Positions 20,288 to 24,958 of a stretch of DNA of 64,000 bases are shown here, piece after piece. The stretch is from IMG/VR virus record IMGVR_UViG_3300043774_001004, positions 1 to 64,000 of that record, one strand, 5' to 3'. This DNA comes from a virus. A model generated the notes under the pieces. It ran no database searches. It was not told the origin of the DNA and saw only the letters and a program-made list of their open reading frames with translations. The position numbers and the translations under genes were made by a program. Within the stretch, counting starts at the first letter, position 1. Every line of letters starts with the position of its first letter.

Positions 20288-20302
20288 AAATAAACATAAG
20301 TA

Positions 20303-20659
20303 ATGAAAACCGTTCTTCTGTTTTTATTTTTGTTGTTTCCTTTTGTTTCCTTTTCACAAAAGGAATACAGGCTATTTGTATGTGGCGACTCTAAAGGTAA
20401 ACCTATCGGCGAGAACGTCTTAACCAGAACAGATCAGCTCTATGAAATCATGAAGACTGATTCTGGTATAGTAATTAAAAATCCAGCGCTAACACTTGTT
20501 AATGGTAAAAACTGGACATCAATTTATTTTAACGGAGAATACGAAGATACTTATCCTACTGAGTTTTTTGATTGCAGTAACTATTATGTAATAGATTTTA
20601 CACAAACTGGAAGTTGTTATTTCTTTTTTGAGGTTCACGCCGTCGACAAATCTTATTGA
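20303..20659 (+). CDS. Small secreted protein
   Basis: 118 residues with a clear signal peptide: MKTVLLFLFLLFPFVSFSQ followed by KEYR. The SFSQ ending is typical of Flavobacteriia exported proteins. The mature part is about 100 residues, beta-rich by appearance, with three Cys. Function is unknown; a periplasmic or outer-membrane role in superinfection exclusion or lysis is possible. It starts 15 bases after the tape measure stop and is followed by the RNA gene region. Confidence 0.6.
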   Translation: MKTVLLFLFLLFPFVSFSQKEYRLFVCGDSKGKPIGENVLTRTDQLYEIMKTDSGIVIKNPALTLVNGKNWTSIYFNGEYEDTYPTEFFDCSNYYVIDFTQTGSCYFFFEVHAVDKSY

Positions 20660-20696
20660 ACCTGTAAAACTTTTTTTCTTATAAAAGTATATTTAT

Positions 20697-20826
20697 TGAA
20701 CAAGTAAACTGAGGATCAGAACGTATGCTGATGCCGGAGTAGACAGAGCTCGAAAACTACTGAAAGGCCTAGAGCCAAAGCCCGGGAGTCGCGACCCAGG
20801 AACGACAATAAAAGGCACTTGTTTAT
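20697..20826 (+). ncRNA. Structured RNA of unknown class, about 130 nt
   Basis: Between 20660 and the CAU tRNA there is no coding frame. ACAAGT (about 20700) and ACTTGT (about 20818) can close a domain. Inside are the hairpins ATCAG / CTGAT and AGTAG / CTACT, a CCT / AGG helix, and GC-rich GGGAGTCGCGACCC. Local GC content is far above the surroundings. A TATATTTAT box (20688-20696) sits at the 5' edge as a possible promoter element. I checked for hammerhead ribozyme and tRNA and rejected both. The class is not recognised. Confidence 0.5.
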
Positions 20827-20828
20827 AT

Positions 20829-20902
20829 GCACCCTTAGCTCAGACGGTTAGAGCAGCTGACTCATAATCAGCGGGTCACAGGTTCGATCCCTGTAGGGTG
20901 CA
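20829..20902 (+). tRNA. tRNA with CAU anticodon (Met or Ile2)
   Basis: Complete cloverleaf: acceptor GCACCCT / AGGGTGC, D arm TAGCTCAGACGGTTAGAGCA, anticodon loop CTCATAA in the GCTGA / TCAGC stem, T arm ACAGGTTCGATCCCTGT, discriminator A, no encoded CCA. CAU could be elongator Met. The 5' part also resembles tRNA-Ile2, in which C34 is converted to lysidine and reads AUA; sequence alone does not settle it. Confidence 0.92.
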
Positions 20903-20914
20903 CTACTAAATATA

Positions 20915-20957
20915 CAGCAAAAGACTTTTACTTTCTAGTTTTTTATTGTATATTTAC
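20915..20957 (+). promoter_or_regulatory. Shared phage promoter motif, copy A
   Basis: CAGCAAAAG (20915) and TATATTTAC (20949) are spaced exactly 34 bases start to start. The same pair with identical spacing occurs at 21441 and 33937. TATATTTA fits the Bacteroidota TAnnTTTG -7 box; the upstream element differs from the host -33 TTTG. It would drive the HNH gene and tRNA-Arg. Confidence 0.6.
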
Positions 20958-20981
20958 AACATAACAATTACAAATGGTATA

Positions 20982-21020
20982 AATCTATTAGCTCAAATAG
21001 TAGAGCAACATAGATATATA
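20982..21020 (+). other. tRNA-like 5' fragment before HNH gene
   Basis: TTAGCTCAAATAGTAGAGCAACA has a D-arm shape (GCTC / GAGC) and resembles the same part of the downstream tRNA-Arg (TAGCTCAGCTTGGATAGAGCAACA). No anticodon arm or 3' half follows; the HNH ATG comes at 21025. It could be the remnant of a tRNA disrupted by the nuclease gene, or a partial duplication. Chance similarity cannot be excluded. Confidence 0.35.
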
Positions 21021-21024
21021 CAAC

Positions 21025-21354
21025 ATGGAAAGAAATTGTAAAACAGAAGGCTGTGGAAATAAAACAAGAGGTCGCGGTAATTATTGTCATCCTTGTAGAA
21101 ATTCTATGAGAAGATATGGATTATCAACTATTGAAAGAGACACTTTACTTGAAAATCAAAGCAACAGATGTTTGATATGTAGTGAGACAATATCATTTGA
21201 TGGGAGTACAAGTCAATATAGTGCATGCGTAGATCATAGCCATATCACCGGTAAAGTGAGAGGTATACTTTGCGGCAATTGCAATACATGGCTTGGTTAT
21301 TTTGAGAAAAAGAACTTGTCTTTAGATGTTGTTAGAAATTATATGGTCCCGTAG
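21025..21354 (+). CDS. HNH endonuclease, Endonuclease VII type
   Basis: A 109-residue protein with an N-terminal zinc finger (CKTEGCGNK with CHPC) and an HNH/Endonuclease VII core: CLICSE, VDHSHITGKVRGILCGNCN, and an aromatic end near WLGYFEK. The DH-H-x8-C-x2-C layout matches recombination endonuclease VII-like homing nucleases common in phages. The gene sits between tRNA genes, and its last 10 bases, including the TAG stop, lie inside the tRNA-Arg gene, so the stop codon is part of the tRNA acceptor/T8 region. This suggests a mobile nuclease integrated at a tRNA target. Confidence 0.8.
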   Translation: MERNCKTEGCGNKTRGRGNYCHPCRNSMRRYGLSTIERDTLLENQSNRCLICSETISFDGSTSQYSACVDHSHITGKVRGILCGNCNTWLGYFEKKNLSLDVVRNYMVP

Positions 21355-21419
21355 CTCAGCTTGGATAGAGCAACAGATTTCTAATCTGTGGGTCACAGGT
21401 TCGAATCCTGTCGGGATCA
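21345..21419 (+). tRNA. tRNA-Arg (UCU)
   Basis: Acceptor GGTCCCG / CGGGATC (one G-U pair), D arm TAGCTCAGCTTGGATAGAGCA, anticodon loop TTTCTAA within ACAGA / TCTGT giving UCU, T arm ACAGGTTCGAATCCTGT, discriminator A, no CCA. It reads AGA, a frequent Arg codon in the AT-rich genes here. Its 5' end overlaps the stop codon of the HNH gene. Confidence 0.95.
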
Positions 21420-21440
21420 CAACAGTAAATATGAAAAAAA

Positions 21441-21483
21441 CAGCAAAAGTCTTTCAAATCTGAAAACTTTTTATTAGTTTTAC
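21441..21483 (+). promoter_or_regulatory. Shared phage promoter motif, copy B
   Basis: CAGCAAAAG (21441) and TAGTTTTAC (21475), 34 bases apart as in copies A and C. It lies just upstream of the large structured RNA, so a transcript would start near 21487-21490. Confidence 0.55.
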
Positions 21484-21499
21484 ATAAATACTAACACAA

Positions 21500-22395
21500 A
21501 CGTTCTTTATTTATTAAAAAGATATCCATTTAGTGAAAGTAACTCTTCGGAGTGATGATAGCTAATAAAGATATTGGCCGCCTATAGTCATCAAATAAAC
21601 CGGGAAACCGGTATAAAGTGAACACAATCGTAAAGGTGTTTGCGGCCCATGATAACTTCGGTTACCATGGACTCGAGTAGGCAAGCAGGATATCACGATT
21701 TCTGAGTATCTGAGGGTAACACTGTAGGAGAAATGAAGTAGTGAATTGGCAATGTGGGTTGTCAGTTTGAGCTCGGAAGAGCAATAAGAATAACCTGTAG
21801 AAAGGTTGCAAAAAATATGTCCATCCAGATATATTATTGCGGTTTTCAATATTATAGAGTGCTTAAAGCCGAAAGGCAAGTCGGTGTACAAGTGGTGTTG
21901 TTACCTACCTTGATCTTAGCCTACCAAGGCATGCGTCACGAAGCAATCTTGAAATATGGAGATGGGGACATTTCAGAGAGTAGTTAAGTATTGACCCTGA
22001 CAAAATCGGGGTTAGCTTGGTCGACGGACCACTACTTTCACCGATCCACACACGAAAAAACTTACTTTGCAATTTTGGTGCAAAACCTAAGAACAAACTA
22101 AGCAAAAGTGTCCGCCAGTTGCAGACGAAAGGTGCTTACCTAGTAACCGGTTGTCGGTTGCCGCAAAAGGCCGCAAGTCTAATGTGATTTTCTAGAAAGC
22201 TTTATAACTCCGCAAGAGTGAATCAGGTCGGCAGACTTGAATAGATGTGAGTAAAGAGAGAGTAGTCTAAATAAAGCAACTTAAGGAGTGGTACACCTAA
22301 ATTACCAGCACTGTTAGAATAGTACTCAAAAGGTACTGGACAAAAGAGGAAACAATAATCTCTCTAAAGATCTAACGCTAAAGCTGTAGTCTCAG
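21500..22395 (+). ncRNA. Large ornate structured RNA, GOLLD/ROOL-like candidate
   Basis: About 0.9 kb with no plausible gene but dense in stable stem-loops. Examples: ACTC-UUCG-GAGT (21542-21553); a multi-branch domain closed by GGCCGC / GCGGCC (21576-21581 with 21642-21647) that holds ACCGG-GAAA-CCGGT (21599-21612) and AACAC / GTGTT; CCATG...TAAC-UUCG-GUUA...CATGG (21647-21670); GCTC-GGAA-GAGC (21771-21782); TGGTC-GACG-GACCA (22018-22031); ACTC / GAGT (22207-22219); and CAGGTC-GGCA-GACTTG (22224-22239). UUCG and GNRA loops dominate. Giant phage RNAs of the GOLLD and ROOL classes have this size, ornate folding and tRNA-adjacent location. The class assignment is inference; boundaries are approximate. 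Confidence 0.65.
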
Positions 22396-22410
22396 GCTTA
22401 TCTATTACAT

Positions 22411-22484
22411 CGCGAGTTGGTAGCAGTTGGTAGCTCGCCAGGCTCATAACCTGGAGGTCGGCGGTTCGAGTCCGTCACTCGCAA
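22411..22484 (+). tRNA. Initiator-type tRNA-fMet (CAU)
   Basis: It resembles E. coli tRNA-fMet closely: CGCGAGT at the 5' end, AGTTGGTAGCTCG in the D arm, CCAGG-CTCATAA-CCTGG anticodon arm, GGTCGGCGGTTCGAGTCCGTC and 3' ACTCGCAAC. Position 1 C faces A72, the unpaired C1-A72 end that marks bacterial initiators. The anticodon stem has two of the usual three G-C pairs next to the loop (position 29 is A-T). No full CCA is encoded. Confidence 0.9.
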
Positions 22485-22496
22485 CAAATAAACAAC

Positions 22497-22520
22497 AGGC
22501 GGTTAATACCGCCTTTTTTT
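22497..22520 (+). terminator. Rho-independent terminator after tRNA-fMet
   Basis: AGGCGG-TTAATA-CCGCCT followed by seven more T. It ends the large RNA/tRNA-fMet transcript. Confidence 0.93.
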
Positions 22521-22534
22521 ATGTCAAATATATA

Positions 22535-22581
22535 CCACAGATACTGTGGAATAGCTTTACGCTATTCGGTTCATAGGAACC
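22535..22581 (+). other. Three consecutive small hairpins
   Basis: CCACAG-ATA-CTGTGG, AATAGC-TTTAC-GCTATT and GGTTC-ATAG-GAACC follow each other with almost no spacer. It lies after a terminator and about 95 bases before the protease gene. It may be a 5' leader element, a small RNA or a protein-binding array; no known class recognised. The remaining 22582-22675 is AT-rich with no clear feature. Confidence 0.45.
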
Positions 22582-22675
22582 CTTCTGATTGCTTCTTTGT
22601 ACGTTCATGTATGGCTAAAACCTAGAAACTACTTAAACTGATCTAACTTTCTCAAAATAAAAATAAACACCCTAA

Positions 22676-24958
22676 ATGAAAAATTTATTAGCGGCATTTG
22701 TTCTCTTTCTGCTTTCATTTGCAGTAAGCGCACAAAATCTAATCCAGGATGTTGACAAGCAATACATGTTAACACCTGAAAAAAACATCAACAAGAGTTT
22801 AGTTGATGCTTTCTTTGAGTTTTATAATATACCAGTAGTGGCGTATTTCGATAAACTCAATACCTATGTAGTTAAAGTTGAAGATTACCAGTACTTTTCA
22901 GATGTATGTAATCTCGTTGACTATTTTGCAATTATAGAAAAGGACCGTACTGAAACCGTTAAAATGGACTATATTCCTACGGATCCTGAATTTGTTTCAT
23001 GTTGGCACTTGAGACAATCTACTGACAAAGACATTGATGCTGATGAGGCATGGGATCTTTTACCAAATGGTAACCCATGGGTTTCAGTTGCAATGTTTGA
23101 TGGTGGTCTTGATTTAACGATACCTGATTTAGTAGGTAACACCGACAGCCCATTTAACGCAGTTAATGGAACTTCATCTGTTTCTTATGTTAACCTAGAA
23201 GATAAGCACGGTACAGCATGTTCAGGAACAATTGCTGCAGTTACAAATAACGACCTAGGCGTAGCCAGTGTAGGTAATAACAAGGTAAAAGTTATGCCTA
23301 TAAATATCATGTCACAGGTATATGCAGGCGGTAGTTTTTCTACAACATCTACAATACAGGTTGCTGCAGTGAACGCTGCAATGTCAAATCCTAATTGTGT
23401 TGCAATCGCAATGTCATATGGCGGAAGCAGCTATTCTTCAACACTTGAAAATGCGTTCTTAACTGCAAGAGAAAACGGTAGAGGCGGAAAAGGAATGATG
23501 ATATTTGCATCATCTGGAAACGGCTCTTCTGGCACAGCAGCTCAATACCCTGCTAATTTTAATGGAGTTTGGGGAGTTGGAGCCACTTCTTCTAGTGACT
23601 TGAAAGCTTCATTCTCTAACTTTGGTCAGATTTGTGATATATCTGCCCCTGGTGTTTCTATCAGAACTACAGATAGACTAGGTGCAGAAGGTTACAATTC
23701 TACGGATTACACGTCTATCAGTGGTACTTCATTTTCTTGCCCAATCACAGCAGCAGCTTCTGCAGTTATTGCATATAAGAATTGGGAACTAACAGACGAC
23801 GAAATTCTTCAGATACTGTCACAGACTTGTGAAAAGGTTGGAGGATATGTTTATTCTAATAACTCTGCTTGGCCTTACAGTACTCGCAGTAATGAATTAG
23901 GTTATGGTCGTATCAATCTTAAAGATGCTGTAATTGCAACACCTAATCCAGGCGGCACACCGCCACCTCCTCCTACACCTGTACATAACTTTTTTGTTGA
24001 ATCTTTGAATGTTACACCAGGTGTTGTAAATCTAGGTGAAATAATTGCAGTAAACTTTAATGTTAAAACTACAGAGCCTTCACTTGACACAGTTACTGTA
24101 TCAACTCAGTTTAGATATTCTACAAATACTACATGGGGTGATACAGATGATATTATCATTGGAAGTACAACATCTACATTAGGTGGCGGTGTTAGTACTG
24201 AAGCTGAATCTTTTACATTTACTGTCGGCGGAACTGCAGGTTCTAGGTACATACTAGCTAAAGTAAACTTTGACGGATCTGCTTCTGAAAGCAACCAAAC
24301 AGATAACACATCAACTAAAGTTTTTACAGTTAATGACCCAGCTTTCTTTGGTACAGATTTGAAAGTAGAGCTTTTCATGCCTAGTTCAAATCCTGTTACA
24401 ACTTCAGCACAGATCCTTAACACTAAATGGAAGATCACTAATCTTGGTAGCACTACTATTACAACTATATCTTATCTAAGACGTTGGGTGAATTGCCCAG
24501 GTAATAGTAGCACCACAGGTAGTTGTGTTCAAACTGTGGCTTGGACAGGTAATTTATTACCAGGTCAGGTTAGTTATTTGCCAGGTGATAATAGTTACAT
24601 CAGTGTAAACCTTTGTCAAAATTCTAACAGATGTGCTGTTCCAGTAGGAAGCAGTAACACCTATAGATTAGATATAATTTCAGTAAATGGTTTACAAGGT
24701 GATGGTAACACTTCTAATAACAGAGTAGATTTGGTTGTAAATCGCATATCTACAACTGAAGAAGATATAATCAGCAGCGAAATTATAGTTGAAGACCCTA
24801 TTGAAACTACTGGAGAAGAATTACCTATTTCAGTACAGTTTTACACAATAACTGGATCTTTACTAGATATTACAAGATTTGATGAACTACCTTCAGGTAT
24901 TTATATTGCAAAAGAAAATTATAAAGACTATACTCTAACGTATAAGTTGATTAAGTAA
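22676..24958 (+). CDS. Secreted subtilisin-like protease with T9SS-type sorting domain
   Basis: A 760-residue S8-family serine protease. A signal peptide (MKNLLAAFVLFLLSFAVSAQ) is followed by a short propeptide-like region. The catalytic triad is Asp 142 (VAMFDGGLDL), His 178 (KHGTACSGTIAA) and Ser 352 (SGTSFSCPITAA). A Pro-rich linker (TPPPPPTP, about residue 430) leads to two CARDB-like beta domains. The last 40 residues, FYTITGSLLD...LPSGIYIAKENY...YKLIK, match the pattern of type IX secretion C-terminal sorting domains of Bacteroidota (GxxV, LPSGxY, K-L-K ending). It was probably acquired from a host and would be exported to or beyond the cell surface during infection. It lies between RNA genes, with its own terminator. 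Confidence 0.85.
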   Translation: MKNLLAAFVLFLLSFAVSAQNLIQDVDKQYMLTPEKNINKSLVDAFFEFYNIPVVAYFDKLNTYVVKVEDYQYFSDVCNLVDYFAIIEKDRTETVKMDYIPTDPEFVSCWHLRQSTDKDIDADEAWDLLPNGNPWVSVAMFDGGLDLTIPDLVGNTDSPFNAVNGTSSVSYVNLEDKHGTACSGTIAAVTNNDLGVASVGNNKVKVMPINIMSQVYAGGSFSTTSTIQVAAVNAAMSNPNCVAIAMSYGGSSYSSTLENAFLTARENGRGGKGMMIFASSGNGSSGTAAQYPANFNGVWGVGATSSSDLKASFSNFGQICDISAPGVSIRTTDRLGAEGYNSTDYTSISGTSFSCPITAAASAVIAYKNWELTDDEILQILSQTCEKVGGYVYSNNSAWPYSTRSNELGYGRINLKDAVIATPNPGGTPPPPPTPVHNFFVESLNVTPGVVNLGEIIAVNFNVKTTEPSLDTVTVSTQFRYSTNTTWGDTDDIIIGSTTSTLGGGVSTEAESFTFTVGGTAGSRYILAKVNFDGSASESNQTDNTSTKVFTVNDPAFFGTDLKVELFMPSSNPVTTSAQILNTKWKITNLGSTTITTISYLRRWVNCPGNSSTTGSCVQTVAWTGNLLPGQVSYLPGDNSYISVNLCQNSNRCAVPVGSSNTYRLDIISVNGLQGDGNTSNNRVDLVVNRISTTEEDIISSEIIVEDPIETTGEELPISVQFYTITGSLLDITRFDELPSGIYIAKENYKDYTLTYKLIK

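Follow-up and report, generated by a model that had tools for sequence, protein, structure and literature searches.

A GOLLD RNA flanked by tRNAs in a T4-like phage and the candidate rRNA-type leader of its relatives

The closest described system is GOLLD env-38, which cryo-EM has shown to be a 14-mer hollow cage (PMC12286853). In env-38, L20.J13/15 forms the intermolecular bridge B7, and the J13/15 linker position is disordered and lies within the cage (PMC12286853). The presence of tRNAs near or inside GOLLD is also already known (PMC12286853, PMC6582537), and a rise in expression during lysis is a further trait ascribed to GOLLD. ROOL (RF03087) is likewise a large phage or prophage RNA found near tRNAs, and it forms cages as well. 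Another relevant system is the bacterial rrn leader, in which promoter, boxB, boxA, and boxC follow one another and boxA is both necessary and sufficient for the antitermination complex (PMC10250234). The E. coli boxA is GYTCTTTAANA (PMC5725501), and Nus factors have been proposed in the literature to act as helpers of rRNA folding.

Identity and extent of the GOLLD RNA

We analyzed 64 kb (hereafter, the window) out of an 89.8-kb virus record. The original prediction had placed a ~0.9-kb structured noncoding RNA at 21441-22484 and left undecided whether it belongs to the GOLLD/ROOL class or is new. Comparison with all of Rfam using Infernal settled this point, revealing a GOLLD (RF02032) match on the + strand at 21976-22398 (271.1 bits against a curated cut-off of 150 bits; E = 3.4e-76) that covers the full-length model (positions 1-416). 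A lax Rfam scan of 20300-22680 found no match at E <= 10 to ROOL or to group I/II intron and rRNA families, the latter being the origins that could have explained the prediction away. The RNA is thus a well-supported member of the known GOLLD family and therefore not a new class. That it is nevertheless a new class, or ROOL, we regard as extremely improbable: RF02032 represents only the GOLLD 3' domain, leaving the 5' half outside the Rfam model, but the full-length match refutes this reading, the 5' half is common to other GOLLDs, and ROOL is ruled out by the lack of any sequence or structure match to RF03087 down to E = 10. A BLASTN search of phage records with the 3' domain of the window returned nothing, and GOLLD-bearing records were reached only via relatives.

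The whole RNA spans about 21520-22398, i.e., ~880 nt (>800 nt), so that the predicted size was right while its limits have to be redrawn, with the tRNA at the 3' side being a separate unit. In agreement with the claimed lack of a coding frame, no sense ORF reaches 80 aa; the sole ORF over the region is antisense, has a TTG start, and gives no Pfam match. The UUCG and GNRA loops are present as described. The folding energy of 21500-22410 is -251.3 kcal/mol versus -224.8 kcal/mol for shuffled sequences (z = -2.9), which supports a long structured RNA, with the covariation described below being much the stronger evidence. Compared with env-38, the window RNA has the same full-model 3' domain, two-domain layout, size, J13/15 linker, B7 pairing, L21a/L21b loops, phage origin, and tRNA neighborhood. 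It differs in that its tRNA abuts the 3' end instead of lying in the linker and in having leader elements that did not turn up in the literature searched.

The 5' domain and cage contacts

GOLLD loci were taken from IMG/VR using patterns inside the 3' domain, the first batch being confirmed by RF02032; another 99 loci came from an HMM built on that domain. Grouping at 92% identity yielded 50 clusters with one representative each. The 5' half could be aligned with that of the window in 44 of the 50 representatives (59-85% identity) and was unrelated in the remaining 6 (L043, L044, L052, L054, L059, and L060), which possibly carry a second type of cap domain. RNAalifold predicted 192 pairs on the 44-sequence alignment, 147 of them with two-sided changes; within the 5' half, these numbers were 102 and 79, in line with the prediction, which had been made to hinge on covariation among homologues. 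Across the 5' half, 96.5% of the alignment cells were paired versus 36-41% when partners were slid by 1-3 columns, and none of 500 shuffles reached this level; given a sequence-based alignment and a structure derived from the same sequences, a certain lead over the slid controls is to be anticipated, though not one of this magnitude. The 5' half by itself also folds better than shuffled sequences (z = -3.0). Since it is common to 44 of the 50 representatives and covaries, this 5' domain (about 21520-21975, + strand) can be assigned on comparative grounds to the same GOLLD RNA. A perfect 6-bp GC helix between 21576-21581 and 21642-21647 had been proposed to close a multi-branch domain. The strands are indeed complementary, but the helix does not hold up as a conserved closing element: relatives keep it only through one-sided or G-U changes, and it is weaker than competing helices, which do show two-sided changes.

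We then scanned the 44 sequences for covariation outside the nested structure, numbering helices by analogy, without the env-38 sequence. By Rfam alignment and by analogy with PMC12286853, the J13/15 linker corresponds to 22044-22109. Its GC at 22102-22103 is complementary to 22173-22174 in L20 in 44/44 sequences, with a two-sided switch between GG.CC and GC.GC, and from the linker and hairpin positions we identify this pairing, by analogy, as the candidate bridge B7. The L21a loop CCGCAAG (22210-22216), with its self-complementary GC (bridge B8), is identical in 37 of 44 sequences and has CG in one row, and the L21b loop CGGCAG (22229-22234; bridge B9) keeps its GC core in 44/44. Position 22341 covaries with 22389, consistent with the L27/J24-26 contact known from env-38, and 22135-22136 covary with 22307-22308. 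In addition, 22024-22029 form a putative pseudoknot with 22110-22115, complementary in almost every row and through many base combinations. The hairpin loop GTGGG (21754-21758) is predicted to pair with 22045-22049 as an inter-domain contact, complementary in 44/44 sequences (GTGG.CCAC in most, GTAG.CTAC in eight), which we did not see in the text of PMC12286853. Collectively, the comparison shows that the predicted counterparts of known cage contacts are conserved in the window RNA and its relatives.

The GOLLD leader in the window and in relatives

Strings of the GTTCTT type lie directly 5' of the 5' domain in 45 of 47 clusters. More specifically, 36 of 47 clusters contain GTTCTTTGAA within their 120-nt leader, where other DNA of the same phages predicts 0.0006 per leader and 0.03 overall, related clusters not being independent events in these counts. 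Since retrieval of the loci relied on 3'-domain patterns, it involved no selection for the leader. Of the six clusters whose 5' half is unrelated, four also have the boxA-like motif, whereas L059 and L060 lack it. The string TAnnTTTG, which we take to be the Bacteroidota -7 box, was found within 80 nt upstream of the motif in 34/44 (expected, 0.074 each). Between promoter and boxA, 31/44 have a hairpin (10% in shuffles) with covarying stems of 4-7 bp (TCGGA, TCAGGA, TCAGTA, and CTTGGT) and mostly AANG loops. Among eight Bacteroidota rRNA leaders, which came from plasmid records, six carry GTTCTTTGA (e.g., GAGTTCTTTGAA and AAGTTCTTTGAA) 121-222 nt before 16S, and two of these loci have a boxA variant again past 16S. 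The GOLLD leader of relatives from phages that apparently infect Bacteroidota thus reads as a TAnnTTTG promoter, a covarying hairpin, and GTTCTTTGAAAA, which is the boxA of Bacteroidota rRNA leaders, an arrangement like that of the host's own rRNA leaders. As in an rrn boxB-boxA leader, promoter, hairpin, and boxA precede a long structured RNA and a tRNA; unlike it, this leader is phage-borne and would drive GOLLD rather than rRNA, and the copy in the window has diverged.

The boxA-like element of the window, GTTCTTTATTTA, keeps only the core. The site (ACGTTCTTTATTTA, 21500-21513, + strand) occupies the same place as ACGTTCTTTGAAAA in relatives and retains GTTCTTT while having lost the following GAA, and no hairpin precedes it in the window. 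In the closest relative (L100), the element has likewise diverged to the core and also lacks the hairpin. A promoter-like motif had been predicted here as well. The + strand near the GOLLD start gave no sigma-70-type promoter, and what stands of that claim is a weak Bacteroidota-like or T4-late-like string: an uncertain candidate element, TAGTTTTACATAAATACTA (21475-21493, + strand), in which TAnnTTTA precedes the boxA-like site by 27 nt. This string, kept in L100, also resembles a T4 late promoter; the T4-late-promoter motif gave one good match before GOLLD, but TATAAATA showed no clear enrichment in intergenic DNA.

Elsewhere in these phages, GTTCTTTGAA occurs four times in 375 kb, always in leaders, and two of these copies precede phage tmRNA genes; further phage tmRNA leaders have GTTCTTTGAA or near variants. 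Several tmRNA genes lie near GOLLD on the opposite strand (L145:4300-4722, L111:5886-6334, L154, L171, L190, L040, and L126), and a number of them have the boxA-like GTTCTTTGA/GTTCTTTAACA ~10-30 nt upstream of their 5' end. Of two ROOL loci, one, in a Bacilli genome (L234), has a boxA-like string, TGCCCTTTGAAAAC; it directly follows a TATAAT promoter where ROOL begins but doubles as one strand of the terminal helix.

A boxA common to all GOLLDs is refuted by Acinetobacter phages and one 642-kb megaphage, whose GOLLDs sit within tRNA arrays or directly follow a tRNA and lack boxA; the GOLLD of a 635-kb megaphage does have the string. Since the motif is lacking in the former and in L059 and L060, it is not required for GOLLD and accompanies the self-standing GOLLD units of Bacteroidota-type phages rather than GOLLD as such. 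We found no paper linking boxA to GOLLD or ROOL in the freely accessible literature, and the boxA-type leader of GOLLD is new as far as we have searched.

These observations lead us to postulate that Bacteroidota phages imitate the host rRNA operon when expressing GOLLD, using a host-type promoter, a boxB-like hairpin, the host boxA, the giant RNA, and a 3' tRNA, and thereby recruit the host Nus-factor transcription and folding machinery for an RNA cage, using the same boxA for tmRNA, a proposal that we favor slightly over its being wrong. Another reading is an ordinary GOLLD whose leader has no link to Nus factors, in which GTTCTTTGAAAA would, for example, extend a phage promoter, act as an RNase site, or form a strand of the GOLLD structure. 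The divergence of the motif in the window and its absence from some GOLLDs agree with this reading, but Bacteroidota rRNA leaders share the string, its place, and its promoter context, as do the regions before phage tmRNA, and it persists where the 5' half is unrelated. We therefore consider a Nus-unrelated leader unlikely, though worth serious attention.

The 3' end, genomic setting, and proposed function

An initiator-type tRNA-Met(CAT) was identified by ARAGORN at 22411-22485 (+ strand); its C1:A72 mismatch can be read directly from the tRNA sequence, and no CCA is encoded. The RNA had been predicted to end in such a tRNA; the tRNA exists but lies outside the RNA, 12 nt beyond the 3' end of GOLLD. 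The terminator foreseen behind it was confirmed as an intrinsic terminator, AGGCGGTTAATACCGCCT + T7 (22497-22521, + strand; 22497-22514, then T7). Among the relatives, ARAGORN places a tRNA 6-45 nt past the GOLLD 3' end in 17 of 49 clusters (Met, Gly, Thr, Leu, and one without assigned identity), and in several clusters it is the sole tRNA within 3 kb. Three more clusters (L041, L056, and L187) have tRNA-like elements that are reduced or were missed by ARAGORN, so that about 20 of 49 clusters have a tRNA or tRNA-like element abutting GOLLD. The remaining clusters, over half of the 49, mostly have a terminator directly after GOLLD. Directly past the GOLLD 3' end, the elements of L055, L057, L056, and L187 show an abnormal anticodon loop (L055 and L057) or consist of nearly only acceptor and T arms.

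The simplest route to the GOLLD 3' end in tRNA-abutting clusters would be RNase P cleavage at the tRNA. Alternatively, the tRNA might stay attached, with cages displaying or storing phage tRNAs (here, the initiator tRNA). The frequency and frequent solitude of the abutting tRNAs point in this direction, as do the odd elements without a normal anticodon loop in L055, L057, and L056 and the tRNA cargo suggested by Kretsch et al. A normal tRNA should, however, be released by RNase P, and more than half of the clusters have just a terminator at this position, making a tRNA carrier rather improbable.

The window contains genes matching phage families (terminase, tail sheath, and tail fiber). Among named phages, the closest terminases belong to Sphingomonas phage PAU, Tenacibaculum phages PTm1/PTm5, and Flavobacterium phage MaF61, which makes a Bacteroidota host likely; we regard the phage as T4-like with probable Bacteroidota hosts. 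Only 1 of 35 terminase relatives contains GOLLD, most of these relatives being fragments. tRNAs flank the GOLLD of the window on both sides, with tRNA-Met(CAT) at 20829-20903 and tRNA-Arg(TCT) at 21345-21420 upstream (ARAGORN, both + strand). An Endonuclease VII (HNH-type) gene (Pfam PF02945) at 21025-21354 overlaps the tRNA-Arg start with its end; mycobacterial tRNA clusters with GOLLD likewise contain an HNH gene (PMC6582537). Before this gene, 20984-21016 resembles the D-arm portion of a tRNA (TAGCTCAAATAGTAGAGCA), perhaps from a broken tRNA. Between the promoter-like string TATATTTA and tRNA-Met, 20690-20828 is a G+C-richer noncoding stretch, which we do not regard as a further structured RNA (folding z of only -1.25; no match in Rfam or, by BLAST, in phages).

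Unannotated GOLLDs were also observed inside the tRNA arrays of Acinetobacter phages YMC13/03/R2096, Ab15, and Bestia (L235, L236, and L239; 218-222 bits), with tRNA-Asp starting 9 nt past the 3' end; in Ab15, two annotated antisense CDS lie in or adjoin GOLLD. Two unannotated phage genomes of 635 kb (LR745206.1, L237) and 642 kb (LR756502.1, L238) have GOLLDs of 287 and 275 bits, respectively. In Bacilli genomes, none scored above the cut-off (151 and 251 genomes, stricter filters; controls silent).

Taken as a whole, the best explanation, which we consider probable, is an ~880-nt GOLLD with its own leader that would be Nus-assisted, RNase P-trimmed, and assembled into a 14-mer cage. GOLLD would be transcribed from this leader, which in relatives comprises the putative host-type promoter, boxB-like hairpin, and host rRNA boxA. 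The boxA may load NusB/S10 and other Nus factors, whose antitermination would let RNA polymerase complete a long untranslated structured RNA and which may assist GOLLD folding, as proposed for rRNA. An RNase P cut at the downstream tRNA would then set the 3' end, and the RNA would assemble like env-38. Our most plausible guess for the role of the cage is that, late in infection, it stores or shields some of the translation machinery.

Covariation at the quaternary contact, seen across a wide range of phage sequences, speaks for cage formation as the selected trait, and the 3' tRNA suggests how the GOLLD 3' end is cut. What may be new to specialists is how the leader and the 3' tRNA are arranged in relatives. 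The conserved boxA leader would tie GOLLD to the machinery that makes rRNA, offering a molecular handle in NusB/S10 binding and boxA point mutants, and it suggests that long untranslated phage RNAs may need antitermination or assisted folding.
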